Positions 10,482-37,786 of a stretch of 64,000 bases of DNA are shown piece by piece. Source of the DNA: Asanoa ferruginea. GTDB taxonomy: Bacteria > Actinomycetota > Actinomycetes > Mycobacteriales > Micromonosporaceae. The first letter of the stretch is position 1. Each line of letters opens with the position of its first letter. The DNA is taken from assembly GCF_003387075.1 (NCBI RefSeq), contig NZ_QUMQ01000001.1, positions 5,146,001 to 5,210,000 on the forward strand. Reading direction: 5' to 3'. Made by a program: the position numbers and the translations under genes. Below the pieces are notes generated by a model that searched no databases, was not told the origin of the DNA, and worked only from the letters and a program-made list of their open reading frames with translations.

Positions 10482-10482
10482 C

Positions 10483-11067: not shown

Positions 11068-11110
11068 GGCTCTGCCTCCCTGTCGGCGAACACGAGCACG
11101 TTATCCAGCG

Positions 11111-12673
11111 TCATCGCCTAGTCGCTCGGCGTATGTTGCCGTCGTTCCCGCTGCCGGCCACCCGCCACCGGTTGAGGGCGGCCAGGAAGTCGCCATGTGA
11201 GAGCACGGTCGGCGGCAGCACGACGCGGCTGCTGGTGACGTTGGCGACGCGCGGGTTGTAGAGCGTGACGTGCGGCAGTTCGTCCAGGACGATGCGCTGC
11301 ACCGCGTCGTACATCGTCTTGCGCTCGTCCTGCCCGAGCCGGATCGACAGTCCTTTGTCGAGCAGGTCGTCGACGGCCGGATTGCGGTAGGCGCAGCGGT
11401 TCCAGCCAACCGGCGTGAGCATCGCCGAGTGGTAGAACGTGTTGAGGAACGCCGGGTCCGGGTCCGGGTTGAGCGCGAGCACGGCCGCGGAATACTGGCG
11501 GGGATAGATGTGGTCACGCAGCAGCGGGCCCATGCCGAGCGCCCGCACGGTGGCGTGGATGCCCACCCGGCGCAGGTCGGCGGCGATGAACTCGGCCGAC
11601 CGCTCCTTCGCCCGGTCGCCGGCGACGGTGAGGATGGTGAGCTCCAGCGCCGTGCCGCGGCTGTCGCGGCGCACGTCGCCGGTGTCGACAAAGCGCCAGC
11701 CGGCCGCGTCCAGCAGCGCGTTGGCCTCGCTGACGGCGTATTCGCGGGCGAGCAGGTTGTCGTTGCGCCAGACCGTGCCGGGCGGCACCAGGGTGTCGGC
11801 CACGGTCCCGGCGCCACCGAGCACCCGGTGGATCAGCCCTTCCCGGTCGATCGCGTGCGCCACGGCCTGGCGCACCCGCAGCTCCCGCAGCAGCGGGTCG
11901 TCCAGGTTGAACGCCAGATAGCTGACCACGGGTGCGTCGTTCCAGTGCACGTCGACCCCGCGCACGTCGGCCAGCGCCCGGGCCAGGTCGGCCGGCACGT
12001 TGGGCACGTAGTCGATCTCGCCGGCGACCAGGGCCTTCACCGCCGCCTCGATGTCGCCGAAGGTCATGAAGTCCACCCGGTCCAGCGGTGGCCTGCCGTC
12101 GAAGTAGTCGGCGTAGCCGGCGATCGAGACCACCTCGCCCGGGCGCCACTCGACGAACCGGAACGCGCCCGAGCCGATCGGCGAGTTGTTGAGCGGGTGG
12201 TCGGGCAAGGGCGCGTCGCCGTAGCGGTGTTTGGGCAGCAGGGGCAGGCAGGCCAGCGACGCCAGGCAGGAGGCCGACGCCTTGGGTAGCCAGATCCGCA
12301 GGCGGTAGCGGCCCGTCGCGGCGAAGCCCATCTCGGCGCCGCCGACGATGAGCTGCGAGCGCCGCGGGCTCTCGTTGGCCGGGTCGAGAGCCGCCTGGAA
12401 GGTGAAGGCGGCGTCCTCGGCGGTGAGCTCGTGACCGTCGTGGAAACGCACCCCGGGCCGCAGCAGGAAGTCGACCGTCTCGCCGTCGGGGCTGATGGTC
12501 CAGTCCTCGACGAGCCCGCCGGCCTGGTATCGGTAGTCGTCGTCCAGCGACAGGAGATGGTCGTAGAGCTGGGTGACCACTGGCGCGCTGAACAGGTCGG
12601 TGAACATGATCGGATTCAGCGTGACCACGTCGGCCGCCCGACCTATCCGGGCGATTGCCGGCTCCGCGCCCAT
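11111..12673 (-). CDS. Cytosolic family-5 solute-binding-protein fold (SBP paralog 1)
   Basis: 520 residues from the ATG at 12673, which has AAAGGAG eight bases upstream. It shows the oligopeptide-binding (DppA/OppA, SBP_bac_5) pattern throughout: TLNPIMFTD..., GLVEDWTISPDG, VRFHDGHELTAEDAAFTF, GSGAFRFVEW, IDYVPNVP, RVRQAVAHAIDREGL, DLRRVGIHATV. There is no signal peptide or lipobox: the protein starts MGAEPAIARIGRAADV and enters the fold at once. No permease or ATPase genes are nearby. Two paralogs follow on the opposite strand at 13580 and 16407, the latter closest (both have GEL/GPLLR(E/D)H-YP and FYHS segments). Function unknown; an intracellular ligand- or product-binding role is inferred from cluster position. 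Confidence 0.8.
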   Translation of the reverse strand: MGAEPAIARIGRAADVVTLNPIMFTDLFSAPVVTQLYDHLLSLDDDYRYQAGGLVEDWTISPDGETVDFLLRPGVRFHDGHELTAEDAAFTFQAALDPANESPRRSQLIVGGAEMGFAATGRYRLRIWLPKASASCLASLACLPLLPKHRYGDAPLPDHPLNNSPIGSGAFRFVEWRPGEVVSIAGYADYFDGRPPLDRVDFMTFGDIEAAVKALVAGEIDYVPNVPADLARALADVRGVDVHWNDAPVVSYLAFNLDDPLLRELRVRQAVAHAIDREGLIHRVLGGAGTVADTLVPPGTVWRNDNLLAREYAVSEANALLDAAGWRFVDTGDVRRDSRGTALELTILTVAGDRAKERSAEFIAADLRRVGIHATVRALGMGPLLRDHIYPRQYSAAVLALNPDPDPAFLNTFYHSAMLTPVGWNRCAYRNPAVDDLLDKGLSIRLGQDERKTMYDAVQRIVLDELPHVTLYNPRVANVTSSRVVLPPTVLSHGDFLAALNRWRVAGSGNDGNIRRATRR

Positions 12674-12755
12674 GACCGAACTCCTTTCCGCACTGCCTAA
12701 TACGTACGCTGACAATGCAGCCTAGGGCGAATCCCGCTAACCTCCCCGGTTCGCA

Positions 12756-12783
12756 CTTGAGCTGCGCAAAATATGCAGTCAAG
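12756..12783. promoter_or_regulatory. Imperfect inverted repeat in divergent promoter region
   Basis: CTTGA-G-CTGC ... GCAG-TCAAG arms flank the AT-rich centre GCAAAATAT between the divergent SBP1 and AHSA1-PDZ genes. It also carries the GCGCAA hexamer found in two other cluster palindromes. Operator function is inference from position. Confidence 0.35.
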
Positions 12784-12810
12784 CACGGGATCACGTAGCC
12801 GAATTAATGT

Positions 12811-12825
12811 GCGCAAGAATTGCGC
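12811..12825. promoter_or_regulatory. GCGCAA-GAA-TTGCGC palindrome upstream of AHSA1-PDZ gene
   Basis: A perfect 6-bp inverted repeat with a 3-base spacer, 39 bases upstream of the ATG at 12864, in the divergent promoter region. The TTGCGC/GCGCAA half-site also forms the palindrome at 24977-24986 between the other divergent operons of the cluster, so both may bind one regulator. Confidence 0.4.
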
Positions 12826-12863
12826 TAGCCGCCCTTGGCGGCCGCTCGTTAGCGTGCCTAAAC

Positions 12864-13574
12864 ATGAGCGACGACCTTCGTTTCTCCCACACGATCGTCA
12901 TTGACGCACCCCGGCAACGCGTCTGGGACGCGTTGACGTCACCGGCCGAACGCAACAAATATGTCTGCACCGAGAACCAGACCGACCTGCGGCCCGGTGG
13001 CGCCTTCATCGAGCTGTTCCAGTACGGGCCGGCCCGGGCGGGCATCTTCCTGGTGGTCTCGGCACCGAACCGGCTCGTGCAGGAGAACTTCGTCTTCGAC
13101 CGCGGCGTCAGCCACCGCTACTACAACGCCTTCACCCTGGCGAACTCGTTCGGTGGCACCGAGCTGACCATCGACGTCGAGGGGTTCGACCACAACGACT
13201 CCGAAGACTGGCTCCGGGAGAGCATGAAGGTCGGCTGGAAGACCGAGCTCCAGGTGCTCAAGGCCTATGTCGAGACAGGTGCCGACATCCGGCCCCAGGT
13301 CTGGAAGGGCGTCCTGATGGGACTGCGCTTCGTCACCGCGCAGGCCTCGCCCGGCGTGCGGGTCATCGACGTCATCGCCGGCACCCCGGCGGCCGCCGCA
13401 GGCCTACGGGTCGGCGACGTGATCAACGGCGTCGACGGCACGAAGGTCGGCGACTTCGCGGAGTTCCGCGAGCTGGTCGGCCGCTTCCGGCCCGGAGACT
13501 CGGCGAGCTTCCAGGTCTGGCGCGACGGCGAGAGCGCCGATCACGCCATCACCTTCGGCAACGCGATCGCCTGA
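12864..13574 (+). CDS. AHSA1/SRPBCC domain fused to a PDZ domain
   Basis: 236 residues. Residues 1 to about 140 are an AHSA1-type SRPBCC/START domain: FSHTIVIDAPRQRVWDALTSP opening, RPGGAFIELF, a beta-rich middle, and the closing amphipathic helix MKVGWKTELQVLKAYVETG. Residues about 155-236 are a PDZ domain: GLRFVTAQASPGVRVIDVIAGTPA-type carboxylate-binding loop, AAGLRVGDVINGVDG, DSASFQVWRDGE. No signal peptide. The SRPBCC fold gives a hydrophobic ligand cavity; calicheamicin self-resistance proteins CalC, CalU16 and CalU19 have this fold, so in an enediyne cluster this is a candidate self-sacrifice or sequestration protein. The PDZ part is unusual and could bind C-termini of partners. It is five bases upstream of SBP2 and likely cotranscribed. 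Confidence 0.8.
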   Translation: MSDDLRFSHTIVIDAPRQRVWDALTSPAERNKYVCTENQTDLRPGGAFIELFQYGPARAGIFLVVSAPNRLVQENFVFDRGVSHRYYNAFTLANSFGGTELTIDVEGFDHNDSEDWLRESMKVGWKTELQVLKAYVETGADIRPQVWKGVLMGLRFVTAQASPGVRVIDVIAGTPAAAAGLRVGDVINGVDGTKVGDFAEFRELVGRFRPGDSASFQVWRDGESADHAITFGNAIA

Positions 13575-13579
13575 CCGCC

Positions 13580-15178
13580 ATGGCTCCGCCCAACCGGGTC
13601 GTGGTCGGGCTGGCCGAGGAGCCCGACGTCCTGGTCCAGGACTTCACCGGCCGGCACTCGACCTGGGCCGTGCTCGCCCCGCTCACGCTCAAGCTGGTCC
13701 GCTACGACGACCACTGGCGCCCGTGGCCCGAGATGGCCGAGCGGTTGCCGGCGCCGGCCGACGGCTCCTGGGTCCGGCACCCCGACGGCCGCACGACGAT
13801 GCGCTATCGGCTGCGCACGGGGCTGCGCTGGCACGACGGGCGGCCGGTGACGGCCGACGACGTCGTGGCGAGCTACCGGCTGCTGCGCTCGCTCGAGTGC
13901 GACTACCCGCACCGGGAGATCGTGGAAGCGATCGATGACATGACCGCGGCCGGGCTGTCGCTGACCGTCCGGTGGGGCGCGACCAACCCCTACGCGGTCT
14001 TCGAGGAGTGGGGCTCGGTGCTGCCGGCCCGGCTGCTCGACCCGCTGCGACTCGCCGACCCCGCCGCCTGGCCGGAGCTGCCCCAACTGCGGCTGCCGAT
14101 CTCGCACGGCCCGTTCCGCGCGGCCGAGTGGGTGCCGGGCGAACGGATCCGCTTGGTCCGCTGCCAGCCGCACCCGCGCGGTGCCGCGGCCGTGGACGAG
14201 ATCGTGTTCCGCTTCCTACCCGGCTCGGGCGAGCTGCGCGACGCCGTCGCGGCCGGGGAGGTCGACGTCACCGACCTGTCCGGGTTCACCGCCGCCGACG
14301 CCCGCGCCCTGCGGGCCGGCGGGTCGGGGGTAAGGGTGGCGGTGGTGCCCTCGTCGATGTGGGAACACATCGACTTCAACCTGGACGACCGCCACCTGCG
14401 CGACGTCCGGGTGCGGCACGCGGTGGCCCACGCGGTCGACCGCCAGGCGATCTCGGACACGCTGCACGACGGTCTCGCCGAGGTGGCACATTCGTGGCTG
14501 CCGGCGCGCCATCCGGCGCACAACGACACCGTCCGGCGTTACCCGCACGACCCTCGCGCCGCCCGGTCCCTGCTGTCCGCCGCCGGCTACACGCCCGGGC
14601 CCGACGGCATCCTGCGCGACGCGTCCGGCGACCGGTTGTGCTTCCGGCTGCTCACCACGACGCCGTCGGTGGCCGGTGGCCGGTGGAGCGCCTCGTCCAC
14701 CCGGACCCGGGCCGGCGAGCTGCTGGCGGACCAGCTGCGGGCGGTCGGCGTCGAGCTGCGGGTCGACGCGGTGCCGGCCGGCGACGCGTTCCGCCGGTTC
14801 CGCTCCCGAGACTTTCCGCATCTCGCGATGTTTGCCTGGTCGATCGCGCTGGAGGCCAACGGGCACCTGATGTGGCATTCCGGCCAGGTCCCACGCCGGG
14901 CCGGCGACTACGGGCTCAACCTGGCCGGCTGGCGGTCGCCGACCAACGACCGGTTGCTCGACCGCATCATCGCCGAGGGCGACCCGACGGCCCGGACGGC
15001 GCTGATCGCCGAGCAGCAGGCGGAGTGGGCCGAGCAGCTGCCGTCGCTGCCGCTGTTCTTCCTGCCGCAGATCGACGCCGTCCGGCGCGGCCTCACGGGG
15101 GTCCGGCACGTCGGTGCGTTCGGCACGTACGTGACCTGGAACAGCTGGCAATGGGCATGGGAGGAGACCGCAAGATGA
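13580..15178 (+). CDS. Cytosolic family-5 solute-binding-protein fold (SBP paralog 2)
   Basis: 532 residues. SBP_bac_5 features: RYRLRTGLRWHDGRPVTADDVVASY, ISHGPFRAAEW, ELRDAVAAGEVDVTDL, HIDFNLDDRHLRDVRVRHAVAHAVDR, DPRAARSLLSAAGYTPGPDG, QLRAVGVELRVDAVP, PSLPLFFLPQIDAVR. The N-terminus MAPPNRVVVGLAEEPDVL has neither a signal peptide nor a lipobox, so the product is predicted cytosolic. The stop codon overlaps the ATG of the downstream P450 (ATGA at 15175-15178), indicating translational coupling and possibly a physical partnership. No ABC permease is nearby. More diverged from paralogs 1 and 3 than they are from each other. Confidence 0.8.
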   Translation: MAPPNRVVVGLAEEPDVLVQDFTGRHSTWAVLAPLTLKLVRYDDHWRPWPEMAERLPAPADGSWVRHPDGRTTMRYRLRTGLRWHDGRPVTADDVVASYRLLRSLECDYPHREIVEAIDDMTAAGLSLTVRWGATNPYAVFEEWGSVLPARLLDPLRLADPAAWPELPQLRLPISHGPFRAAEWVPGERIRLVRCQPHPRGAAAVDEIVFRFLPGSGELRDAVAAGEVDVTDLSGFTAADARALRAGGSGVRVAVVPSSMWEHIDFNLDDRHLRDVRVRHAVAHAVDRQAISDTLHDGLAEVAHSWLPARHPAHNDTVRRYPHDPRAARSLLSAAGYTPGPDGILRDASGDRLCFRLLTTTPSVAGGRWSASSTRTRAGELLADQLRAVGVELRVDAVPAGDAFRRFRSRDFPHLAMFAWSIALEANGHLMWHSGQVPRRAGDYGLNLAGWRSPTNDRLLDRIIAEGDPTARTALIAEQQAEWAEQLPSLPLFFLPQIDAVRRGLTGVRHVGAFGTYVTWNSWQWAWEETAR

Positions 15179-16410
15179 CTATCCACGAGGGCGCGGAGCT
15201 CGACATCACCTCCGCCGAGTATGCGGCCGACCCGTACTGGCACTACCGGAAGCTCCGCGAGCAGGCGGCGGCGCATTGGATCGGGCCGGCCGGGTCCGAC
15301 CGCTGGGTGCTGGTGACCCGCTGCGAGCTCGGGCGGCAGGTGCTCGCCGACGGCCGGTTCTCCAAGCACCTGCCCGGTAAGTACACGGCCACCTCGACCG
15401 CCGGTGGTGAAGGGCGCTCGATGCTCGGCAGCGACCCGCCGGCACACACCCGGCTGCGCGCCACCGTCTCCTCGACCTTCTCCGGGCGGGCCATCGCCGC
15501 CCGCCGTCCGCGCATCGCCCGGATCAGCGAGGAGCTGGTCGACGCCATGGTGGCGCGGCTGGACCCGCCCGGCGCCGGCGTCGCCGAACTGCGCCACGAG
15601 TACGCGCTCCCGTTCGCCTTCACCGTGCTCAGCGAGATCATCGGCATCCCGGACGACCGGCGCGACGACTTCCACGCCTGGACGGTCCGCATGTTGAGCC
15701 CGGCGCCGACCGAGGCCGAGCGGACGGCTCAGGCGACGGCGGTCGACAACATCCGCGCGTACGTCCGGGAGCGGGTGGCCGTCGAGGCCCGGGAACGCGG
15801 GACGGTCGACGACACGGCACCGCTGCTGCGCGCCCTGGCCATCGACGCGTCCGAGAACGCGCTCACCGACGGCGAGATCGTCACGATGATCACGCTGATC
15901 CTCGCCGCCGGCTACGAGGGCGCGGCCAACATGATCCTCAACGGGATGGCCGCGTTCCTGGTGCACGAAGACCAGTGGAAGCTGCTGACCAGCACACCGT
16001 CGATGGCCGACGCCGCGGTGCGGGAAGCGCTCCGCTACGACTGTCCGGTGCAGCGGGCCACCCTCCGGGTCGCCACCGAAGACGTCCGCTTCGGCGACGT
16101 GACGTTCGAGGCCGGCACGCTCGTCGGCGTCTCGCTGGCCGCCGCCAACCACGACCCCGAGGCGTTCGCCGACGCAGAGGCGTTCGACATCGGCCGCCCA
16201 CCGGCGCCGAACATGGCGTTCAGCCACGGCATCCACCGGTGCCTCGGCGCGTCGTTGGCGACCACCGAAGGCGCCGTCGCGTTCCGGCACCTGGCCACCC
16301 GGCTGCCCGACCTGCGGCTGCATCCGGCCGCGGGCCCGATCCGCTGGTGCCGCACCGGGTTCCTGCGCGGCCCCGAGGAGATCCGCGTGGTGCGCGGTGA
16401 CGCGGGATGA
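15175..16410 (+). CDS. Cytochrome P450 with altered I-helix threonine
   Basis: 411 residues, bacterial soluble class. The heme-ligand loop FSHGIHRCLG places Cys at about residue 356, the K-helix has EALR, and the perf region follows. The I-helix reads AAGYEGAAN: the acidic residue (Glu about 248) is retained, but the usual following Thr of the acid-alcohol pair is Gly. Loss of that Thr is known in some P450s that use substrate hydroxyls for proton delivery or catalyse non-hydroxylation chemistry; which applies here is unknown. It overlaps SBP2 upstream and SBP3 downstream by four bases each, so the three are translationally coupled. No ferredoxin gene is in the cluster as seen. Confidence 0.9.
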   Translation: MTIHEGAELDITSAEYAADPYWHYRKLREQAAAHWIGPAGSDRWVLVTRCELGRQVLADGRFSKHLPGKYTATSTAGGEGRSMLGSDPPAHTRLRATVSSTFSGRAIAARRPRIARISEELVDAMVARLDPPGAGVAELRHEYALPFAFTVLSEIIGIPDDRRDDFHAWTVRMLSPAPTEAERTAQATAVDNIRAYVRERVAVEARERGTVDDTAPLLRALAIDASENALTDGEIVTMITLILAAGYEGAANMILNGMAAFLVHEDQWKLLTSTPSMADAAVREALRYDCPVQRATLRVATEDVRFGDVTFEAGTLVGVSLAAANHDPEAFADAEAFDIGRPPAPNMAFSHGIHRCLGASLATTEGAVAFRHLATRLPDLRLHPAAGPIRWCRTGFLRGPEEIRVVRGDAG

Positions 16411-17924
16411 CGACGACGGTCCGGATCGCCCGCACCACCGAGGTCACCACCTTCGACCCGGTGCGCTACAACGACCGGGGCACCGGTGAGGTGCTCAACC
16501 GCATGTTCAGCCACCTGCTGGTCACCGACAGCGCCGGCGGCTACGGCTACGGCTCGCTCGTGGCCGAGGCTGTGGAGACGCGGCTCGGCGACCGGGTCCG
16601 GCACAGCCTGCGGCTGCGTGACGACGCGCGCTGGCACGACGGGCGGCCGGTCACCGCGCACGACGTCGCCTTCACCATCCGCCGGGTGCTCGACCCGGCG
16701 CTGGACAGCCCGCGCCGGCCGGAAGTGTTGACCATCGGCGCCGACCTGACCGTCAGGTGCCCGACGGCCCGAGTGGTCGAGCTCGAGTTCGTTCCCGAAG
16801 GCCACGCCGGCCTGCGGGCGTTGGCCTGGCTGCCGGTGCTGCCCGAGCATCACTACGGTGCCGGAGGCGGTGACCCGTTCGCCGTTGCCCCGCTGGGCTC
16901 CGGCGAGTTCCGGTTCGCCACCCGCGACCCGGCCGACGGCACGATCGAGCTGGTGGCCAACCGCGACCACTGGGCGCCACCGAGGCTCGACGGTGCCCGT
17001 TGGCGGCGCTACCGGGACGCGGGGGCGGCGGTGGACGCGGTGCTGGCCGGCGCGGAAGACATCGCCACGGCCGTCACGCCCGCGGCCGCCCGATCGGTCG
17101 CCGGTCATCCCGGCGTGCGGGTGCACACCAGCAGCGACGGAAGCTGCGTCTACCTCGGCTACCAGACCGCGACACCGGTGCTGCGCGAGCCGGCGCTGCG
17201 CACGGCCCTGAGCATGGCGATCGACCGCCGGAAGCTGGTGGCGGAGACGATCGCCGGCCAGGGTCGCCCGGCGACCACGATCATCCATCCGGACAGTCGC
17301 TGGCACTGCGGCGACGTCTTCGAGCATCGTTATGACCCGATGGCGGCGGCGGACCGGTTGGGGCGCCTGGGCTGGCGGCTCGACGGCACCGCGGTGCGCC
17401 GTGACGGCGCGGGCCGGCCGCTCACGCTGAGCCTGCTCACCGTCGCCGGTGACGAGGTGAAACTGGCCGCCGCCGAGTTGATCGCGAGCCAACTCGCCGA
17501 CGTGGGCGTGCGGGTGCGGGTCGACGCGCTGCCGATCGGCGAGCTGCTGCGCGAGCACGTCTATCCCGGGCGCTTCGAGGCCGTGCTGCTCGCGCTCAAC
17601 CCCGGTCCCAGCCCGTCCTTCCTGCGCGGCTTCTACCACTCCGGAGAAAACGGGGCGACCAACCGCTTCCGGTACGCGGACCCGGCGGTCGACCGGATGC
17701 TCGACGCGCTGCCGCCGCTGGACGACGAGGCGGCTGCCGTCGAACCGGTGCGGGCCGTCCAGCGGGCGGTGGCGCTCGGTGTCCCGCACACCCCGCTGTT
17801 CCACCCCGACGTCGTCGACGTCGCCTCGGCCGCGCTGCGGATGCCGCCGCTGACCGGCCTCTACACCAACCGCTTCACCGACCTGCACCGGTGGGCGCAT
17901 CAGACGCCCGCCCCGGCCCGCTGA
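16407..17924 (+). CDS. Cytosolic family-5 solute-binding-protein fold (SBP paralog 3)
   Basis: 505 residues. Motifs align with paralog 1: TTFDPVRYND, GSLVAEAVETRLGD, SLRLRDDARWHDGRPVTAHDVAFTIRR, PLGSGEFRFATRD, LRTALSMAIDRRKLV, ASQLADVGVRVRVDALPIGELLREHVYPG, ALNPGPSPSFLRGFYHSG. No signal peptide: MTTTVRIARTTEV leads straight into the fold. The ATG overlaps the previous P450 stop (ATGA), and a second P450 starts 18 bases after its stop. The arrangement SBP-P450-SBP-P450 is repeated, suggesting duplication of a two-gene unit followed by divergence. Ligand unknown. Confidence 0.8.
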   Translation: MTTTVRIARTTEVTTFDPVRYNDRGTGEVLNRMFSHLLVTDSAGGYGYGSLVAEAVETRLGDRVRHSLRLRDDARWHDGRPVTAHDVAFTIRRVLDPALDSPRRPEVLTIGADLTVRCPTARVVELEFVPEGHAGLRALAWLPVLPEHHYGAGGGDPFAVAPLGSGEFRFATRDPADGTIELVANRDHWAPPRLDGARWRRYRDAGAAVDAVLAGAEDIATAVTPAAARSVAGHPGVRVHTSSDGSCVYLGYQTATPVLREPALRTALSMAIDRRKLVAETIAGQGRPATTIIHPDSRWHCGDVFEHRYDPMAAADRLGRLGWRLDGTAVRRDGAGRPLTLSLLTVAGDEVKLAAAELIASQLADVGVRVRVDALPIGELLREHVYPGRFEAVLLALNPGPSPSFLRGFYHSGENGATNRFRYADPAVDRMLDALPPLDDEAAAVEPVRAVQRAVALGVPHTPLFHPDVVDVASAALRMPPLTGLYTNRFTDLHRWAHQTPAPAR

Positions 17925-17942
17925 CCCGCTCGGGAGGATTGC

Positions 17943-19181
17943 ATGGCCAGCCGTGAACCGCTCGACTTCGATCCGTTCGACCCGGCGTTCGTCACCGACC
18001 CGTACCCCCTGCTGGGCAAGCTGCGTGCGGAAGCGGCGGTCCACTTCGTCCGGCAGCCCAACAAGATCGAACGCTATGTGATCGTGCGGCTGGCCGAGGG
18101 CCGCCGCATGCTCACCGACAAGCGGTTCTCGGCCAACCCGGAGGTCGGCCGGGCCGCCCTGGAGAAGGCGGGCTATCTCCAACCGGGCCAGGGCTCCGGG
18201 CTCGCCGAGGCGAGCCTGCTGACGACCGACCCGCCCGTGCACACCCGGCTGCGGCGGCTGCTGTCCAGGGCCTACGACCCGCACCAGCAGGGGCAGCTGC
18301 GGCCGATCATCGAACGCACCGTGGCCGCCATGGTCGAGCAGTTGCGCGCCGCCGACGGTGCGACGGTCGACCTGGTCACCGGCTTCGCCCACCCGCTGAC
18401 CATCCGTACCCTGTGCGAACTGATGGGCATCACCGAGCACGACAGCGTCGCCTTCGGTGGCTGGATCAACGACGTCATGACCCCACGGCACCGGCCCGGC
18501 GCCAACGCCATCCGGATGGCGGCCGACCAGGCCGTCCGCGACTACCTGGCGGCGCTGATCGCGGCGCGCACAGGTGGGGGAGACGACCTGACCAGCCGGC
18601 TCGTCGACCGGTGGCGCGCGGATCCGGAGCAGATCACCGCGGCCGAGCTGACCAACATGCTCTACGAGCTCATCCTGGCCGGCTATCTGACCACGGCCGG
18701 CCTCATCGTCAACGGCCTGCTCGCGCTGCTCGACCACCCGACGCAGTGGCGGCGCTGGAGGTCGGAGCCCGACCTGCGGCCTGGTGCGGTGGAGGAGTTG
18801 CTGCGCTACGACGGGCCGGCGTTCTCCGGCTCCTCGCGGTTCGCCACCGAAGACATCGAGGTCGGCGAGGTCACCATTCCGGCCGGCGGTGTGGTGTCGG
18901 TGATGTTCGCCGCGACCAACCGCGACCCGCGGGCGTTCCCGGATCCCGACCAGCTCGTGCTGCACCGGCCCAACGCGCAGCAGCACCTCGGTTTCAGCCA
19001 TGGCATCCACCTGTGCTGGGGTGCGCCGATCGCCCGGCTCGAGACCTGGATCGCGCTCGGTGCGCTGGCCGACGCGTTCGAGTCCGTCGAGTTGGCGGTT
19101 GACCGGGCCGAGGTCAGCTGGGGCTCGGTGGGCAACAGCCGGTCACCGGTCGCGCTACCGGTGGCGCTGCGCGGCTCCTGA
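17943..19181 (+). CDS. Cytochrome P450 lacking the I-helix acidic residue
   Basis: 412 residues with a Shine-Dalgarno GGGAGG before the ATG. Heme loop FSHGIHLCWG (Cys about residue 358), K-helix EELLR. The I-helix reads LAGYLTTAG: the Thr pair is kept, but the acidic residue before it is Leu (about residue 249). This is the mirror image of the neighbouring P450, which keeps the acid and lacks the Thr. Both share the uncommon FSHGIH heme-loop start, so they are probably related by duplication. Likely role: tailoring oxidation in the enediyne-type pathway. A strong bidirectional terminator follows the stop. Confidence 0.9.
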   Translation: MASREPLDFDPFDPAFVTDPYPLLGKLRAEAAVHFVRQPNKIERYVIVRLAEGRRMLTDKRFSANPEVGRAALEKAGYLQPGQGSGLAEASLLTTDPPVHTRLRRLLSRAYDPHQQGQLRPIIERTVAAMVEQLRAADGATVDLVTGFAHPLTIRTLCELMGITEHDSVAFGGWINDVMTPRHRPGANAIRMAADQAVRDYLAALIAARTGGGDDLTSRLVDRWRADPEQITAAELTNMLYELILAGYLTTAGLIVNGLLALLDHPTQWRRWRSEPDLRPGAVEELLRYDGPAFSGSSRFATEDIEVGEVTIPAGGVVSVMFAATNRDPRAFPDPDQLVLHRPNAQQHLGFSHGIHLCWGAPIARLETWIALGALADAFESVELAVDRAEVSWGSVGNSRSPVALPVALRGS

Positions 19182-19195
19182 GCGGACGCACGAAA

Positions 19196-19227: not shown

Positions 19228-19237
19228 GTGTGTCTGG

Positions 19238-19691: not shown

Positions 19692-20474
19692 ATGGCGGAG
19701 CTCGCAGCTATCACCGCAGACCGGGAAATCGACGATGACGGGTGGCAGGAGTTCTTCTCGCACCCGCAATTCTTGCGCTTCTCGTCCGCGATTCTCACCG
19801 CTGAGCGCACGGCCGCCGAAGTCGCCGCGGTGCGCCGGTGGTTGGGCCCGCCGTCCGGGGCATCCCTTCTCGATCTCGGCTGTGGCTACGGTCGCATCGC
19901 GGTTCCACTCGCCGCCGCCGGTTACCGGGTGACCGGGCTGGATGCCAACGCGGCGATGCTGGCGAAGGCGGCCGCCGACGCCGAGGCCGCCGGTGTCGCC
20001 ATCGATTTCGTGCACCGCGACATGCGCGAGATGGCCCTGCCGGCGGAGTCGTTCGACGCGGTGCTCAACCTCAGCACCGCCTTCGGCTACGCCGACGACG
20101 CCGACGGCGACCTGGCCACCCTCGAGGCGGTGCGCACGGTGCTGCGGCCGGCCGGCCTGTTCCTCATCGACACGGAGAACCGCGACGCCAAGATCCGCAC
20201 TGCGCGCTCGACAAGTTTCGCCATGGCCGGGGTGAAGATCACCTGCCGGCGCGACTTCGACCCTCTCACTGGCCGGTGGCGGGAGGCGATGTCGTGGACC
20301 GACGGCGACGCCACCGACGGCTCGGTGTTCAGCGTGCGTCTCTACTCCGCCACCGAGCTGACCACCATGCTGCGCCGGGCGGGCCTGCAACTGGTCGGCG
20401 CCTGGGGCGGCTTTGACGGCCAGCCCTACACGATCGACAGCGGCCGGATGATCATGTTGGCCCGCCGGGCCTGA
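19692..20474 (+). CDS. Class I SAM-dependent methyltransferase
   Basis: 260 residues. SAM motif I LLDLGCGYGRIAVPLA (about residues 58-75), the motif II acidic residue in VTGLDANAAML, DFVHRDMREMAL for adenine contacts, and the motif IV/post I region FDAVLNLSTAFGYA. The C-terminal half carries the substrate cap strands ending IDSGRMIMLARRA. Small-molecule O- or N-methylation is likely; whether the substrate is the enediyne-type product or its acyl group is unknown. It is convergent with the carrier-protein operon (11-base gap). Confidence 0.85.
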   Translation: MAELAAITADREIDDDGWQEFFSHPQFLRFSSAILTAERTAAEVAAVRRWLGPPSGASLLDLGCGYGRIAVPLAAAGYRVTGLDANAAMLAKAAADAEAAGVAIDFVHRDMREMALPAESFDAVLNLSTAFGYADDADGDLATLEAVRTVLRPAGLFLIDTENRDAKIRTARSTSFAMAGVKITCRRDFDPLTGRWREAMSWTDGDATDGSVFSVRLYSATELTTMLRRAGLQLVGAWGGFDGQPYTIDSGRMIMLARRA

Positions 20475-20743: not shown

Positions 20744-20748
20744 GACAG

Positions 20749-24425: not shown

Positions 24426-24932
24426 TCACGCGCTCAGCGTCGTCCCGAACTTCGTGGTGATGTAGCCGCCGATCGATTCGAGCAGCTCCCGGGGCACCGG
24501 TCGGGGCCGCATCCGGCGGTCGTCGTCGCGCTCCAGCCACGCCAATTGCTGGGAGCCCCGGGCGACCAGCTCGGCGGGGCCGGCGGATACCCGCCAATAC
24601 TCGAACTCCAAGGTCATCCGGTTCTGGGTGACGTCGGACATCCACAGATGCATACAGATTTCGTCGAATGCTTCGGTCTCGATGAAATAGTCACACCGGC
24701 ACCAGGTGGTGACCAAGGCGTAGCGGTCGCCGAGTTCGCGGACCACCCAGTCGCCGGTCTCCTTCAGGAACAGCTCCCGGCAGTGCCCCTGCCACTTGAC
24801 GTACTGCGAGAAATAAACGTTTCCGGTCGCGTTCGTCTCCTCCAGGGAAACCACCCGTCGATATGCGAAATATGGTTGGCGTGGGTTGCCGTGTGTGCAT
24901 TCGATATCGGGAGTGTCATATTGCGTATGCAT
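24426..24932 (-). CDS. Enediyne-type hotdog thioesterase (E10/TEBC family)
   Basis: 168 residues from the ATG at 24932 (a TTG at 24941 is an alternative). The segment EETNATGNVYFSQYVKWQG followed by HCRELFLKE is the signature of enediyne thioesterases such as CalE7 and SgcE10, including the Asn and Arg region used for hydrolysis and decarboxylation. The rest is a 4-hydroxybenzoyl-CoA-thioesterase-like hotdog fold. It releases the polyene chain from the enediyne PKS in known systems. Unusually, it is not next to the PKS gene but heads the divergent operon with the carrier-protein enzymes. Confidence 0.92.
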   Translation of the reverse strand: MHTQYDTPDIECTHGNPRQPYFAYRRVVSLEETNATGNVYFSQYVKWQGHCRELFLKETGDWVVRELGDRYALVTTWCRCDYFIETEAFDEICMHLWMSDVTQNRMTLEFEYWRVSAGPAELVARGSQQLAWLERDDDRRMRPRPVPRELLESIGGYITTKFGTTLSA

Positions 24933-24976
24933 ATCGCCCAAGCGTACTGACGCGGTCTCTGGCCGGCACTGCGGAT

Positions 24977-25077: not shown

Positions 25078-27024
25078 TTGTCGTCTCAGACTGCACCCGC
25101 GCCCCAACAGCCCAACCGGCCGACCGGCCGGGCCCGGCACCACCTCGTTCGCCTCCTCGCCCTCGTCGCCGTGCTGGCGGTGGGCTGGGCGACCGAACTG
25201 CCCCGGCCGTCGGCCGCTGAGGTCCGCCGGGTCGCGAGCGGGTTCGCCTTCGCGCCCACCGAGTTGCGGCCGGTTTCGGTCGACGGCTTCAAGACACAAC
25301 GCCCGGTCGCGCCGCACCTGTCGAAGCTGCGGACCTGGATGTCCGGCGTCGGCGCCTCGATCGCGCTGACCGACCTACAGGGTTCCGGGTTCAGTCGCGA
25401 CCTCTGCTGGGTGGACCCGCGGACCGACACCGTCACGATCACCCCGGCCCCCGGAACGCCCGCGGCGTACGCCCCGTTCGCGGTGGATCCGGCGCCGTTG
25501 ACCTACAGCCGCGCGACCATGGCACCGACCGGTTGCCTGCCCGGTGACTTCGACGAGGACGGCTCGACCGACCTGCTCGTCTACTACTGGGGACGGACCC
25601 CGGTGGTCTTCCTCCGCTCGCCTGCCACGCCACTGTCGGCTGCGGCGTTCCGGCCGCTGGAGCTCTGGCCGGGTGCGGAGCGCTGGTATACCGACTCCGT
25701 CAACCGCGCCGACGTCGATGGTGACGGGCACCCCGATCTGATCATCGGCAACTACTTCCCGGACGGCGCCCGCATCCTCGACGCCACCGCCGAGCACGAC
25801 CCGGCGTTCCAGATGAACGACTCGATGGCGAGCGCCTTCAACGGCGGCCGGAACCACATCATGCTGTGGCGCCCCGGTGCCGCCGGGTCCCTACCGTTCC
25901 AGGACGCCGGCGCGGTGTTCGGCGAGAAGGTCGCGCACGGCTGGACGCTGGCGATCGGCGCGCAGGACTTCAACGGCGATGGGCTTCCGGAGCTCTACTT
26001 CGCCAACGACTTCGGCCCCGACCGGCTGATGGTCAACCGCTCGACGCCGGGTCAGGTGCGGTTCACCGAGGTGACCGGGAGCCGTGACTTCACCACGCCC
26101 AAGTCCAAGTCGCTCGGGCACGACTCCTTCAAGGGCATGGGTGTCGACTTCGGCGACCTCAATGGTGACGGCCGCACCGACATGTTCGTCAGCAACATCT
26201 CGTCGCAGCGCGGTCTGATGGAGACCAACTTCGCCTGGGTCAACACCGGCGACCCGGTCGCGGTCGGCGCGGAAGCACCGTTCGCCGAGCGCAGCGACTC
26301 GTTGCACGTGGCCCGCACCGGCTGGGGTTGGGACGCCAAGATCGACGACTTCGCCAACGACGGCCGCCCGGAGATCGTCCAGGCGACCGGTTTCGCCTAC
26401 GGCAAGCACGACACCTGGCCGCAGGTGGCGGAGCTGGCGATGGAGAACGACCAGTTGGTCAAGCACCCGACCAACTGGATGCAGTCCAGCGACGACTGGG
26501 GCCTGGCCGCGCACGACCAGCCCGCCTTCCTCGCCTGGGACGGCGACCGGTTCGTCGACGTCACCACCGAGTTGGGGCTCGACCAGGGCATCACCCGGGC
26601 CATCGCCACTGGCGACGTCGACGGCGACGGGCGGCTCGACCTGGCGATCGCCGGTCAATGGGGACCGTCGTTCTTCTACCGCAACACCACGCCCGACGCG
26701 GGGCTCTCGCTCGACCTCCGGTTGCTCCGGCCGCTGGCGTCCGGTGGGACACCGACGGTCACCCGCGACGTCGCGGTGCGGGGAATTCCGGTGATCGGCG
26801 CTCGCGCGACGGTCACCCTCCCGAGCGGAGACCGCTACACCGCGCAGGTCGACGGCGGGAACGGCCACGCCAGCGCACGGAGCACCGACCTGCACTTCGG
26901 GCTCGGTGAGCTGCCGGCGGGCACGCCGATAGCGGTCCGCGTCGACTGGCGGTCGACGGACGGGACCCAGCAGTCCCGCGACTACACCGTGACAGCCGGG
27001 CGATGGTCCATCGTCCTCGGGTGA
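25078..27024 (+). CDS. unbV: UnbV-type enediyne biosynthesis protein (FG-GAP repeats + ASPIC/UnbV domain)
   Basis: 648 residues from a TTG start with a GGGGGG stretch upstream. An N-terminal hydrophobic signal/anchor (HLVRLLALVAVLAVGWATEL) is followed by FG-GAP/VCBS-type repeats with calcium-binding loops DFDEDGSTDL (about 157), DVDGDGHPDL (about 211), DFNGDGLPEL (about 297), DLNGDGRTDM (about 360) and DVDGDGRLDL (about 514). It ends in an ASPIC/UnbV domain (GARATVTLPSGDRY, VDGGNGHASARS, LHFGLGE). UnbV (E4) belongs to the conserved enediyne PKS cassette; its chemical function is not established. It is first in the rightward core operon. Confidence 0.92.
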   Translation: MSSQTAPAPQQPNRPTGRARHHLVRLLALVAVLAVGWATELPRPSAAEVRRVASGFAFAPTELRPVSVDGFKTQRPVAPHLSKLRTWMSGVGASIALTDLQGSGFSRDLCWVDPRTDTVTITPAPGTPAAYAPFAVDPAPLTYSRATMAPTGCLPGDFDEDGSTDLLVYYWGRTPVVFLRSPATPLSAAAFRPLELWPGAERWYTDSVNRADVDGDGHPDLIIGNYFPDGARILDATAEHDPAFQMNDSMASAFNGGRNHIMLWRPGAAGSLPFQDAGAVFGEKVAHGWTLAIGAQDFNGDGLPELYFANDFGPDRLMVNRSTPGQVRFTEVTGSRDFTTPKSKSLGHDSFKGMGVDFGDLNGDGRTDMFVSNISSQRGLMETNFAWVNTGDPVAVGAEAPFAERSDSLHVARTGWGWDAKIDDFANDGRPEIVQATGFAYGKHDTWPQVAELAMENDQLVKHPTNWMQSSDDWGLAAHDQPAFLAWDGDRFVDVTTELGLDQGITRAIATGDVDGDGRLDLAIAGQWGPSFFYRNTTPDAGLSLDLRLLRPLASGGTPTVTRDVAVRGIPVIGARATVTLPSGDRYTAQVDGGNGHASARSTDLHFGLGELPAGTPIAVRVDWRSTDGTQQSRDYTVTAGRWSIVLG

Positions 27025-27039
27025 AAAGGGGGGAACCAG

Positions 27040-28044
27040 ATGGTTGCCGAGGAAGTGCTGACGAGGTCGGCGGCCCCGAGCGCACCGGCGCCGAAGGTCA
27101 TCGACAAGCGGGTGGCCGCGCTGAAGCGGTTCGCGATCTCGATCACCGTGTTCAACATCGTCGGGCGGCTCTGGCTCGGGTTCGAGACCTCGTGGGCGTC
27201 GCTGTGCGTCGCGCTGCTCACCGCGTACACGGCCGAGTTGTTCTTCGAATTTGTCGACGCGAAGGCGAGCGGGCGCCGGCCACGTTACGAGGGCGGGCTC
27301 CGGAGTTTCGTCATCTTTTTGCTCCCCGGGCACATCGGCGCCGTGGCGATCTCGATGCTGCTCTATCCCGGCGGCGAGCTGTGGCCGTTCGTCTTCGCGG
27401 TGACCGTCGCCAGCGCCGGCAAATACCTCTTCCAGGCACCGGTGAACGGCAAGCTGCGGCACGTGCTGAACCCCTCCAACCTGGGGATCTCGGCCACGCT
27501 GCTGGTGTTCCCGTGGGTGGGTGTCGGGCTGCCCTACCAGTTCACCGAGACCACCTCGGGGATCGTCGACTGGATCATCCCGCTCGCCCTGTTCGCGAGC
27601 GGCATCATGCTCAACTCGAAGCTCACCGGCAAGATGCCGCTGGTCCTGAGCTGGCTGGGGTTCTTCGCACTACAGGCGGTGCTGCGGGGTTTGGACCCGA
27701 CCGTCTCGCTGGTCGGCGCGCTGGCTCCGATGACCGGCCTCGCGTTCCTGCTCTTCACCACCTACATGATCACGGATCCTGGTAGCACCCCCGTGCGGCC
27801 GCTCAACCAGGTGGCATTCGGCGCGGCCTGCGCCGCTTGTTACGCCGGCTTCATGCTGCTGCACATCGCGTACGGGATCTTCTACAGCGTGGTCGTGGTG
27901 TGCGCGATCCGGGGCGGCTACCTGTGGTTCCGCCACTGGCGCGGGATCCGGACGCAGCGTGCCCAGGCGAGCGTGCCCGAGGCCGGTCAGCAGCTGTCCG
28001 CTCCGACCGGCACCGCGGTGCCGGCGATGACCCTGAGTGAGTGA
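27040..28044 (+). CDS. unbU: UnbU-type integral membrane enediyne biosynthesis protein
   Basis: 334 residues with about eight to ten membrane helices, resembling the RnfD/NqrB-like membrane fold. The family hallmarks seen are YEGGLRSFVIFLLPGHIGAVA, KYLFQAPVNGKLRHVLNPSNLGI and the TYMITDPGSTP loop. UnbU (E5) is one of the conserved enediyne cassette proteins; by fold it could be a flavin-linked membrane electron-transfer subunit, but this is not proven. It lies 15 bases after unbV and six bases before pksE, so one transcript is likely. Confidence 0.92.
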   Translation: MVAEEVLTRSAAPSAPAPKVIDKRVAALKRFAISITVFNIVGRLWLGFETSWASLCVALLTAYTAELFFEFVDAKASGRRPRYEGGLRSFVIFLLPGHIGAVAISMLLYPGGELWPFVFAVTVASAGKYLFQAPVNGKLRHVLNPSNLGISATLLVFPWVGVGLPYQFTETTSGIVDWIIPLALFASGIMLNSKLTGKMPLVLSWLGFFALQAVLRGLDPTVSLVGALAPMTGLAFLLFTTYMITDPGSTPVRPLNQVAFGAACAACYAGFMLLHIAYGIFYSVVVVCAIRGGYLWFRHWRGIRTQRAQASVPEAGQQLSAPTGTAVPAMTLSE

Positions 28045-28050: not shown

Positions 28051-31000
28051 ATGGCGAACACCAGGATCGCAATCGTCGGACTCGCCTGCCAATACCCGGA
28101 GGCGGCCGCACCCGCCCTGCTGTGGCGCAATGTGCTGGCCGGGCGCCGCTCGTTCCGGGAGATCCCGCCGGAGCGGCTCAACCTCGACGACTATCACTCA
28201 CCCGACCGCTCGGCGCCGGATGCCACCTACAACCGCTACGCCGCTCTGCTCGACGACTACCAGTTCGACCGGGTCGCGTTCAACGTCCCCGGCCCGGCCT
28301 ACCGCAGCAGCGACATCGCGCACTGGCTGGCCCTCGACGTGGCCAAGCGGTCCCTCGACGACGCCGGTTTCGCCGACCTGCCGATCGACCGGCGCCGCGT
28401 GTCCGTCCTCATGGGAAACACGCTGACCGGCGACTACACCCGCAGCGGCGTGCTCCGGCTGCGCTGGCCTTATGTGCGGCGCGCCGTCGCCGCGGCACTC
28501 GCCGAGCGGGGCCTGGCCGATCAGCTCGGGCAGCTCCTCCCGGAGCTCGAGCGCACCTTCAAGGAGCCGTTCCAGCCGATCAACGAGGAGAGCCTGGCCG
28601 GCGGGCTGTCAAACACCATCGCCGGCCGGATCTGCAACTTCTTCGATTTCGGTGGCGGCGGCTACACCATCGACGGCGCCTGTTCGTCGTCGCTGCTGAC
28701 AGTCATCCACTCCGCGATCGCGTTGCAGCGTGGCGACGTCGACCTGGCGCTGGCCGGCGGCGTCGACCTGAGCATCGATCCGTTCGAGCTGGTCGGGTTC
28801 GCCAAGACCAGCGCGCTGGCCGAGACGCTGATGCGGATCTACGACGAGCGCTCCGAGGGCTTCTGGCCCGGCGAGGGCTGTGGCGTGGTCACGCTGGTGC
28901 GGGAGGCCGACGCGATCCGCTGGGGGTTGCGGGTCTACGCGACGATCACCGGGTTCGGCATCTCCTCCGACGGGCACGGCGGCATCACCCGTCCCGAGGT
29001 CGACGGTCACGCCCTGGCCATGCGCCGGGCGTACGACGCGGCCGGTTACGGCCCGGACCTGGTCGAGCTCTTCGAAGGGCACGGCACCGGCACCCGGGTC
29101 GGTGACGCGGCGGAGGTCGCCGCCATCTCGCGGCTGCGGCGCACGGCGGGTGCGAGCGACGTCGCCGCCCTGGGGTCGATCAAGGCGAACATCGGCCACA
29201 CCAAGGCCGCCGCCGGTGTCGCGGGACTGATCAAAGTGGTGCTGAGCGTGCACAGCGGCGTGTTGCCGCCGACCACCGGCTCCGAGGCGCCATTGGCCGA
29301 GCTGCGCGGGCCCGACCGGGTGCTGGAGGTGCGGCGGGGTGCGCGCGAGTGGAGCAGCGACGTCCGCCGGGCCGCGGTCAGTGCCGTGGGCTTCGGTGGC
29401 ATCAACACCCACGTCACCGTCGAGCAGTCGCACGCCGGCCAGCCGGCCCGGCTCTGGGCGGTCGACTCGGCGGTGGCGTCCACCGGGCAGGACGCCGAGC
29501 TGATCCCGTTCGCGGCCGCGTCCCTGCCGGAGCTGGCCAGGCAGAGCCGGGAGCTGGCCGCGGCGGCCCGCGATCTGACCTTCGGGCGGATGAGCGACCT
29601 GGCCGTCCACGCCGCCCGGGCCACGCTTCCGGGCCAGCGGGCCCGGGCGGCGGTGGTCGCCCGCACACCGAAGGAGCTGGCCGAGGGCTGCGCCGAGCTG
29701 GCCGATCGCATCGAGGCCGGTGTGCCGCGGCACGTCGGGCCGGACTACTCCTTCTCGGCTTCGGCCGACGCGCCACGGATCGGCTTCGTGTTCTCCGGCC
29801 AGGGCTCGCCGGTGCGTCTCGACGCGGGCTCGCTTGGCCGCCGGTTCCCGGCCGCGCAAGCGGTGCTCGACGGGGCCGGGCTGCCGGACACGACCACTGT
29901 GGACACCGCGGTCGCGCAGCCGGCGACCGTGGCGGTTTCGGCCGCTGCGTTGGCGGTTCTCGGCGCGCTCGGCGTCGAGGCGACCGTCGCCGTCGGCCAC
30001 AGCCTCGGCGAGCTCACCGCGCTGCACTGGGCGGGCGTGTTCACCCGCGCCGAGCTGATCGACCTGGCCACCACCCGCGGCCGGGCGATGGCCGCGTGCA
30101 CCGCCGAGCGGGGCGCGATGGTCGAGTTGGGAACCGACGTCGAGACCGCGGCCGACCTGATCGCCGACCTACCGCTCTCGGTGGCCGCGGTCAACGCGGC
30201 CGACCGCACCGTGGTCTCGGGCGCCGAGGCCGCCATCCAGACCTGCCGGCGCCGTGCCGCGACCCGGAGCATCCGGGCCACCCCGCTGCGGGTGTCCCAC
30301 GCGTTCCACTCCGATCTGGTCGCGCCGGCCGCGCCGGCGATCACCGCGTGGTTCCCGCCAGGTACCGCCGAACGCGTGGTCCAGCGTCCGGTGGTCTCCA
30401 CCGTTACCGGGGCCGTGCTGTCCGGGCGGGTGTCGATCGAGCGGCTGCTGGTCGAGCAGGTGACCGCGCCGGTGTTGTTCACCGACGCGCTCGAGGCCGC
30501 GGCCGACCGGTGCGACCTGCTCGTCGAGGTCGGCCCCGGACGGATCCTGGCCGACCTCGCCGCGGCGGCCGGGTTGCCGGCCCTGTCGGTCGATGCCGGC
30601 GCGTACGGCTTCGCGCCGTTCCTCGGCGTCGTCGGTGCGGCGTATGCCCTCGGCTCGCCGGTCGCGCTCGACGCGCTGGTCGCCAACCGGATCGCCGTGG
30701 TCAGCGATCCGCTGCGCCGGCCCACCTATCTGGTCAACCCGTGCGAGCAGTTGCCCGCCCCGACGGTGCGGCTGGAACCTGCGCCGGAGCCTGAACCGGC
30801 GGCGGAGCTTCAACCGGGGGCGCCGCCGGAGGTTTCCGAGCGCGGCGACATCGCCCGGGTGGTTCGCGACCTCATCGCCGCCCGGACCGAGTTGCCGGCC
30901 GACGCGGTCAGCGACGGCAGCACGTTCCTGGTCGACCTCAAGCTCAACTCGATCGCGGTGGCCCAGATAGCCGCGGACGCGGCCCGGGACACCGGGCGCG

Positions 31001-33834: not shown

Positions 33835-34817
33835 GAACCCCTTCCGTGCTGCTCATCAGCGATTGCGAACGCTTCGAGACACAGGCCGACCAGCTCATCC
33901 GGCATGTGCGGCAGACGCTGGTCAACGGCGGCGCTCAGGTCCGGGTGATGCTGCCGGACACGGCTCCCCAGCCGATGGCCGGAGACGTGGCCGCATCGGA
34001 CGCGGTCATCGTGGTCTCGCGGGAGCGCAACCGCTCCTACTCGGGCACCATCAAGACGTTGCTCGACTCGCTCGACGTGCGAACCACGTCCGGCAAGCCA
34101 TTCGCGCTGATCTCCTACGGCGAGTCGCGGCCGGCGGCGACCGCGGTCGACCACCTGCGCGTGGTCGTCAGCGCCCTCGGTGGGGTGCCGCTTCCGGCGG
34201 ACGTGTGCATGGCCCTCAAGGCGGTCGGCTCGGCCGGCGCCAGCGTGGTCGACGGCGCCGCGGCCGACTCGATCGCCAGTCTGGTCGGGGAGTTGCTGTC
34301 CTACTCCCGGCGCGCCGGGCCGGGTACGCCGCGGACCGGCCCCGAGCGCCGACCGCGGGCGGTGACCTCGACCACCCGGACGGGGTTCGAACCGGCGGCG
34401 CAGGTCGACGGCAAGGTCTACGAGGGCATCGCGCTCGCGGTCGCCTATATCAAGGAGAACTACCGGGACCAGAGCCTGTCGCTGGACGCCGTGGCGAACG
34501 CCGTCTACATGAGTCGCTACCACTTCTCCCGGAAGTTCCGGCAGGAGACCGGCCGGCGGTTCATCGACTACCTGATCATGTTGCGAATGACCGAGGCCCG
34601 GAAACTGCTGCTCCAGACCAACTGCACGGTCACGGCCATCTCGGCGGAGGTGGGCTATCGGGACCTCAGCAACTTCGAGCGCAGCTTCAAGAAGCTCTAC
34701 GGCACCCAGCCCTCGCAATACCGGCAGCGCTATGCCCGGCCGGCGCCGGAACGGCACCGCGAGCTGATCCAGCTCCGGCAGTTCGAGTCAGAACCGCCCG
34801 TCCGGCGGCCGGCATGA
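33831..34817 (+). CDS. Flavodoxin/FMN-reductase-like domain fused to AraC DNA-binding domain
   Basis: 328 residues. Residues 1 to about 150 resemble NADPH-dependent FMN reductases: a beta-alpha start LLISDCERFETQADQLI, SRERNRSYSGTIKTLLDSL in place of the flavin loop, GKPFALISYGESRPAATAVDHLRVVV and GGVPLPADVCM. A Pro/Arg linker follows. Residues about 205-305 form an AraC-family double helix-turn-helix: DQSLSLDAVANAVYMSRYHFSRKFRQE, ARKLLLQTNCTVTAISAEVGYRDLSNFERSFKKLYG. An FMN-sensing or redox-sensing activator of the cluster is plausible. It is translationally coupled to pksE upstream and to the ABC1 kinase downstream (ATGA overlaps on both sides). I know no characterised protein with this domain pairing. 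Confidence 0.85.
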   Translation: MRTPSVLLISDCERFETQADQLIRHVRQTLVNGGAQVRVMLPDTAPQPMAGDVAASDAVIVVSRERNRSYSGTIKTLLDSLDVRTTSGKPFALISYGESRPAATAVDHLRVVVSALGGVPLPADVCMALKAVGSAGASVVDGAAADSIASLVGELLSYSRRAGPGTPRTGPERRPRAVTSTTRTGFEPAAQVDGKVYEGIALAVAYIKENYRDQSLSLDAVANAVYMSRYHFSRKFRQETGRRFIDYLIMLRMTEARKLLLQTNCTVTAISAEVGYRDLSNFERSFKKLYGTQPSQYRQRYARPAPERHRELIQLRQFESEPPVRRPA

Positions 34818-37764: not shown

Positions 37765-37786
37765 CGCCCCGGCGATTGGACTCCGG

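Follow-up and report, generated by a model that had tools for sequence, protein, structure and literature searches.

Enediynes are DNA-cutting antibiotics and extremely toxic natural products, and to our knowledge the way in which a producer survives and handles the unstable enediyne core is understood for few clusters. The apoproteins of the chromoproteins of the C-1027 and neocarzinostatin types are secreted, and Pfam holds a family for them. The solute-binding proteins (SBPs) of the SBP_bac_5 family mostly bind peptides, although cytosolic SBP_bac_5 domains occur in regulators, as in SgrR. SBPs are described as extracytosolic proteins in the available part of PMC9602780. Enediyne producers use START self-sacrifice proteins and TnmS sequestration proteins, according to the accessible portion of PMC11069151, and for the START protein DynU16 from dynemicin biosynthesis, an action on a linear polyene early in the pathway was proposed from its cavity (PMC8488855, in the part available). 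Here, we analysed a 64,000-nucleotide stretch of the Asanoa ferruginea genome (C1:5146001-5210000 of a single-contig genome of 9.07 Mb), which is referred to as the window. By Pfam, its positions 11111-19181 encode three SBP_bac_5 proteins, designated SBP1, SBP2 and SBP3, together with a protein containing AHSA1 (START-like) and PDZ domains, designated AHSA1-PDZ, and two P450s.

The window proteins share the SBP_bac_5 domain with the binding proteins OppA, DppA, NikA and AppA, and the predicted structures of SBP2 and SBP3 show the whole two-lobed SBP fold. They differ from these transport proteins in having neither signal peptide nor lipobox and in that no import permease or ATPase was found adjacent to them; moreover, their genes stand in a row with AHSA1-PDZ inside enediyne clusters. 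SgrR also has an SBP_bac_5 domain in the cytosol, but its DNA-binding domain is absent here. The apoproteins of nine-membered chromoproteins would act alike if the ligand is an enediyne, whereas the three SBPs are signal-less and Pfam gives PF00496 only for them, with no apoprotein domain. TnmS1, TnmS2 and TnmS3 would likewise act in the same way, as cluster-encoded drug binders in the producer (PMC11069151, in part); the window proteins, on the other hand, have the SBP fold and 505-532 residues, so that the two are likened by role and not by sequence. With CalC/CalU16 and DynU16 (accessible parts of PMC8488855 and PMC11069151), the locus shares the AHSA1 domain in the first gene of the row, with a weak match to CalU16, but this domain is fused to PDZ here and is linked to the SBPs by gene order only. 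No paper on SBPs in enediyne clusters was found in the open-licence literature, a search that lay outside supplementary gene tables. The accessible main text of PMC5181780 has no use of 'binding protein' or 'oligopeptide', a count that does not extend to its supplementary gene tables; SBPs are possibly listed in these or in such tables for known clusters.

SBP1 (11111..12673, minus strand; PF00496, E 6e-74) and AHSA1-PDZ (12864..13574, plus strand; PF08327, E 1.5e-16; PF13180, E 3.7e-16) diverge from a common upstream region of 190 bases. The best start of SBP1 is the ATG at 12673, which has an AAGGAG-like ribosome site upstream, and the TTG start in the list of open reading frames was corrected to it. 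AHSA1-PDZ, which the earlier note left out of its account of the locus, directly precedes SBP2 (13580..15178, plus strand; PF00496) at a distance of 5 bases, and P450a (15175..16410, plus strand; PF00067, E 2.8e-25; top PDB matches PikC), SBP3 (16407..17924, plus strand; PF00496) and P450b (17943..19181, plus strand; PF00067, E 9.7e-24) follow. The PF00496 scores of the three SBPs are 249.8, 182 and 174.5 bits against a curated cut-off of 32.4 (E <=4.5e-51). The earlier note had described an SBP-P450-SBP-P450 series joined by 4-base overlaps. This is true of two of the three junctions, where ATGA is shared by SBP2 and P450a (15175-15178) and by P450a and SBP3 (16407-16410), but SBP3 is separated from P450b by an 18-base gap containing a ribosome site. 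The heme motifs of P450a and P450b, FSHGIHRCLG and FSHGIHLCWG, are intact. Their I-helix motifs, AGYEGA without Thr in P450a and AGYLTT without an acid in P450b, look unusual for P450s, in which a Thr and an acid are expected at this site.

Export signals were called from hydropathy and a lipobox motif, a heuristic other than SignalP. The genome has 16 PF00496 genes; a hydrophobic stretch with a lipobox precedes the domain in 13 of 13 outside the window and in none of the three inside, which bears out the earlier observation that the three SBPs lack any signal or lipobox. For SBP3, an in-frame stop only two codons ahead of the start leaves no space for a signal. SBP1 could be extended by 16 codons before the upstream stop, which are at most mildly hydrophobic (mean hydropathy 1.43 over 11). 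Above SBP2, the reading frame stays open through the AHSA1-PDZ gene, which is in a different frame, and contains no lipobox, and the most hydrophobic stretch (1.91) of the extended frame falls within the SBP itself. A missed in-frame signal, which the earlier note had named as an objection to its own view, was ruled out by reading the upstream frames of the SBPs of the window and of two related clusters, G604 and G491, which are described below; the signal is absent in seven of the seven SBPs of these three clusters.

The SBP-dependent import permease (PF00528) was not found among the Pfam-scanned proteins of the window, a scan that left out some genes of the left end. The scanned direct neighbours at 9951-20474 included neither an import permease nor an ATPase, with genes farther off covered in part. 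The claim that no ABC permease or ATPase lies nearby thus stands for import through PF00528, but other ABC genes do exist elsewhere in the window, namely two exporters at 46764-50194 and a FecCD system. The latter (52352-55459, minus strand) consists of a FecCD permease pair and a PF01497 lipoprotein, and is a siderophore importer of the usual kind that has no relation to the SBPs. In the relatives too, where siting beside ABC permeases would have told against the proposal, no SBP-dependent import permease was found among the scanned part of the G491 and G604 neighbours. A scan of genome contigs with SBP3 gave 27 matches at 20-32% identity, and 16 of these were inspected with the heuristic, using two-letter motifs and mechanical frames. 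A lipobox was seen at 7 of the 16 loci, a strong hydrophobic stretch at 5 more and only a weak stretch at 4, and a polytopic frame was present at 14 and an ABC-ATPase-like frame at 5.

The enediyne setting proposed earlier is confirmed by four genes. The thioesterase (TEBC/E10; 24426..24941, minus strand) matches DynE7, CalE7 and the acyl carrier protein (ACP)-polyene thioesterase 4i4j with E <=5.3e-27. A UnbV-type protein (25078..27024, plus strand; PF07593, ASPIC/UnbV) lies between the thioesterase and the enediyne polyketide synthase (PKSE), and is followed by a UnbU-type membrane protein (27040..28044, plus strand), whose NQR2/RnfD match is under its cut-off. The PKSE (28051..33834, plus strand) has 1927 residues and matches to ketosynthase, acyltransferase, ketoreductase and dehydratase domains, and its PDB matches include DynE8 among many polyketide synthases.

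A search with the thioesterase hit 112 of 300 family genomes, its own included. One match in each of 40 further genomes, comprising the best 29 and another 11 chosen by hand, was taken as the centre of a neighbourhood of up to 20 kb per side, as the contig permitted (9.3 kb for G477; 20 kb in total for G023, G506 and G568); for 19 neighbourhoods and, contig permitting, for G604 and G491 the span was up to 40 kb. G604 and G491, each from another genus, are the two best thioesterase relatives. In both, AHSA1-PDZ and two SBPs, SBPa and SBPb, form one row adjoining the thioesterase, with SBPb next to it. The identities to the window are 49% (G604) and 48% (G491) for AHSA1-PDZ, 51-52% for SBPa to SBP2, 48-49% for PKSE and 51% for TEBC, and SBPb is 40-44% identical to both SBP1 and SBP3. 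Four-base overlaps join AHSA1-PDZ to SBPa and SBPa to SBPb in G604, and SBPa to SBPb in G491. All four SBPs of the two clusters are without a signal. No P450 was found in 65 kb of G604 and 80 kb of G491, where the best tblastn match with P450a or P450b reached 24.3 bits (E 9.4). The recurrence of the row in two other genera argues that it is not there by chance. Between G604 and G491, the identity is 76% for SBPa and 67% for SBPb, which resembles that of PKSE (69%) and TEBC (77%), and the SBPs are therefore not decaying.

By reciprocal best hits, the window shares 11 genes with both G604 and G491, and three of them are the AHSA1-PDZ/SBPa/SBPb unit. Apart from the thioesterase, UnbV, UnbU and PKSE genes given above, the common set contains a methyltransferase (19692..20474, plus strand; Pfam), an AraC-type regulator (33831..34817, plus strand), an ABC1/UbiB-like kinase (34814..36052, plus strand; the latter two also identified by domain matches) and an open frame with a major facilitator superfamily (MFS) exporter (36944..39043, plus strand; PF07690), whose true start is not fixed. 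The ABC1 kinase gene adjoins the AHSA1-PDZ gene in G604 and G491. An ABC exporter pair is shared by the window and G604 only, and 10483-11067, 36146-36703 and others by the window and G491 only; where the G604 and G491 clusters end is not fixed, because their flanks also match each other. In G491 and, by reciprocal hits, in G604, the ABC1 kinase is followed by an LVIVD-repeat protein (L082:4852-7808 and L077:13242-16102), and these genes diverge from the AHSA1-PDZ/SBP row. Just beyond the stretch read, at a distance of about 41 kb from the thioesterase, G491 encodes a further SBP, an ordinary lipoprotein (C23:567035-568048). Binding of the PDZ domain to the C-termini of cluster proteins was considered as well, but by eye no hydrophobic C-terminus is common to the three clusters, except the -PA end of the AraC regulator.

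Orthologs of SBP2 (E <=1e-40) occur in 3 of 354 genomes of the family, its own included, and these are the window genome, G604 and G491, which represent three genera. None was found in 341 and 375 genomes of two other families (E <=1e-50), searches whose positive control is given only by the G604 and G491 matches of the same query. SBP3-like genes were found neither in 60 relatives at E 1e-60 nor in 393 other genomes of the class at E 1e-55, where three candidates per genome were scored, and plasmids gave no match. AHSA1-PDZ was not found beyond its own genome among 80 relatives, a set that lacks G604 and G491. In the PKSE tree of 41 clusters, made by a quick method with no bootstrap, the window falls into a single clade with G604 and G491 (SH-aLRT 100), in which the window branch is long. 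In the SBP tree of 35 rows, the SBPa group (three proteins, with SBP2) and the SBPb group (four proteins, with SBP1 and SBP3; 100/99) are each supported at >=100/99; the branching of SBP1 and SBP3 inside the SBPb group is not settled by this tree.

A profile search (E <=1e-5, frames of at least 200 residues) detected SBP_bac_5 in 4 of the 40 enediyne neighbourhoods. The eight genes concerned are all signal-less and represent two lineages, not eight independent events. A 60-bit pairwise cut-off was too strict here, since it gave 2 of 40 neighbourhoods and is passed by only 10 of the 13 ordinary SBPs of the genome. The second lineage consists of G594 and G626, which group together in the PKSE tree and have a different, independent tandem pair of SBP_bac_5 genes, 16-20 kb from the thioesterase and with no signal upstream (N-termini MSDT..PRYGGVLRLYG and M...PRYGGTL). 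The pair lies at L161:12326-15744 in G626 and at L162:3248-4954, with a further match at L162:1866-3071, in G594, beside Aminotran_5, DUF6004 (PF19467) and proteins without a Pfam match. An AHSA1 protein, a P450, an MFS exporter, methyltransferases and an EryCIII-like glycosyltransferase are encoded between the pair and the thioesterase of G594, and because of these genes the pair most likely belongs to the enediyne cluster.

The four genomes G604, G491, G594 and G626 contain 52 PF00496 genes. Upstream of the domain, 47 loci were checked, and 43 have a signal and 4 do not; the script had flagged 6 of the 47 as signal-less, but L180 and L200 have a clear lipobox and were counted with the signal-bearing loci, three of which (L174, L176 and L193) show a hydrophobic stretch without a lipobox match. 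The remaining five of the 52 are cluster genes, all signal-less. With the window genome included, five genomes have 68 PF00496 genes, 56 with and 12 without a signal, and 11 of these 12 are in enediyne neighbourhoods and one is elsewhere. These counts are not a random sample, because the five genomes were picked for having signal-less SBPs, and the baseline covers the genomic context of the 12 signal-less genes and not of the 56 others. The single gene elsewhere is a lone SBP_bac_5 gene of G626 (C12:118129-119328; L209, L248, L249). Its neighbours are two ATP-grasp proteins with amino-acid-ligase ends, a MetRS-like protein, a lysine/ornithine N-monooxygenase, a Na/H exchanger and a DDAH/ADI protein, and the locus looks like another biosynthetic locus, of a peptide type.

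The reading we tentatively favour, while holding it to be less than an even call, is that the SBPs are intracellular holders of the enediyne or of a late precursor. SBPa and SBPb would be complete SBP_bac_5 proteins that lost the way out of the cell and now serve the enediyne pathway as cytosolic binders, encoded in the same row as a START-like/PDZ protein. They would hold the enediyne, or a late reactive precursor, in the cell until an exporter takes it, and would keep it off the DNA. We prefer this because the proteins are signal-less, the fold is intact in the SBP2 and SBP3 models, the coupled row is conserved, the SBPs are inherited with the enediyne core and the arrangement recurs in a second lineage. 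The first gene of the row, being START-like, suggests that a ligand is handled or protection given; its CalU16 matches are weak, and START and TnmS proteins are known from enediyne producers (PMC11069151, in part). The cytosolic carrier or sequestration role suggested in the earlier note is thus retained as far as the missing signal, the enediyne setting and the lack of a visible import system go, and the protective part of it is conjectural.

Several observations weigh against this reading. CalU16 accounts for 2 of the 6 PDB matches of the AHSA1 domain at E <=1, but these matches are weak (E 0.016-0.019) and not the top ones, the best being the uncharacterised 3q6a (E 0.0073). A START neighbour is also no proof of resistance, because DynU16 was proposed to act on an early linear polyene (PMC8488855, in part). 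In 36 of the 40 enediyne neighbourhoods there is no SBP in the stretch read, and most enediyne clusters therefore manage without one. The sister relation of SBPa and SBPb is not supported in the tree, and in the second lineage a P450 does belong to the cluster, at a place that does not adjoin the SBPs. The residue region compared for the ligand varies too much among ordinary SBPs, and the identification of the ligand from pocket residues was dropped for this reason.

The closest competitor, which we regard as unlikely though less so than the others, is that the SBPs carry or chaperone an early intermediate in the cytosol, such as the polyene of the PKSE once the thioesterase has released it, or that they catalyse the maturation of the core. 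SBPb adjoins the thioesterase in G604 and G491, the 11 common genes leave few candidates for maturation, and DynU16 was interpreted likewise from its cavity (PMC8488855, in part); with 36 of 40 neighbourhoods lacking an SBP in the stretch read, however, such a step would need to be peculiar to these lineages. We prefer that the enediyne or a late precursor is held in the cell over early carriage, but the data separate the two poorly. The earlier note had each SBP present its ligand to a partner P450, as the 4-base overlaps of SBP2, P450a and SBP3 would suggest. This model fails to find support in the relatives, where no P450 was found in the stretches read and SBPa is coupled straight to SBPb, and SBP1 is on the opposite strand, so that we consider it quite improbable. 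Since the row is conserved without a P450 in G604 and G491, the P450 pair of the window, which would be an addition here or a loss in those two clusters, is an unlikely reason for the SBPs.

Cytosolic sensing of a peptide or metabolite to control expression, like the SBP domain of SgrR, would agree with the occurrence of SBP_bac_5 domains in cytosolic regulators, and SBP1 has a faint match to the NCBIfam model of SgrR, with 19.5 bits where the cut-off is 476. The three SBPs have no DNA-binding domain by Pfam, however, and the cluster carries a separate AraC-type regulator, which leaves sensing with a small chance. A little harder still to sustain is the view that the SBPs bind peptides or amino-acyl conjugates which the pathway makes. 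The family mostly binds peptides, the window has genes for an M3 peptidase and an ATP-grasp ligase as well as prolyl-carrier genes, and the signal-less SBP in the peptide-type locus of G626 is accompanied by two amino-acid-ligase-like proteins. The M3 peptidase, ATP-grasp and prolyl-carrier dehydrogenase genes, on the other hand, are unmatched above 60 bits in the G604 and G491 stretches, although G604 has an adenylation-domain match (103 bits, 32%). We give least credence to ordinary transport SBPs exported by another route, or to decaying remnants; the predicted fold is intact, but no signal exists in any of the seven SBPs, and the SBPa and SBPb identities between G604 and G491 stand at the level of PKSE and TEBC.

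If intracellular holding is correct, an extracellular peptide-capturing fold has moved indoors and would represent a new protein type for enediyne self-protection or handling. Protective binding proteins of enediynes are already known, and an SBP_bac_5 protein in such a role would join them. A wider proposal, which we put forward with more reserve, is that signal-less SBP_bac_5 proteins are recurrent intracellular small-molecule binders of actinomycete biosynthetic clusters that keep a reactive product or precursor harmless. They might have entered enediyne clusters on two or more occasions, each time as a tandem pair (SBPa/SBPb with AHSA1-PDZ, and the G594/G626 pair), and the peptide-type locus of G626 on one further occasion. 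A signal-less SBP_bac_5 gene in a row within a biosynthetic cluster would then be a searchable genomic mark, and, as just 11 genes are common to the three clusters, the role of the SBPs is directly testable.

Other genes of the window complete the picture of the cluster. At 20486-24388 (minus strand), a carrier protein, an adenylation domain, a prolyl-carrier dehydrogenase-like protein and a β-ketoacyl-ACP synthase III are encoded consecutively. The dehydrogenase-like protein (22212-23354) is closest to the prolyl-carrier dehydrogenases of the PigA and RedW types, under the NCBIfam cut-offs, and these genes possibly provide a pyrrole-2-carboxyl unit on the product. M3 peptidase (Dcp-like), flavin reductase and ATP-grasp/amino-acid-ligase-like genes occupy 39040-42802 (plus strand), and nothing in the stretches of G604 and G491 matches them above 60 bits. 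At the cluster edge, a small protein (9536-9925, minus strand) is weakly similar to a mitomycin-binding protein and to a glyoxalase/bleomycin-resistance fold protein (1kmz, E 0.0029), and is another possible drug-binding candidate. The protein encoded at 10483-11067 (minus strand) has no Pfam match, but homologs 60-78% identical to it occur in 26 of the 40 enediyne neighbourhoods (matches above 60 bits), and on this distribution it is an unnamed enediyne-associated protein.

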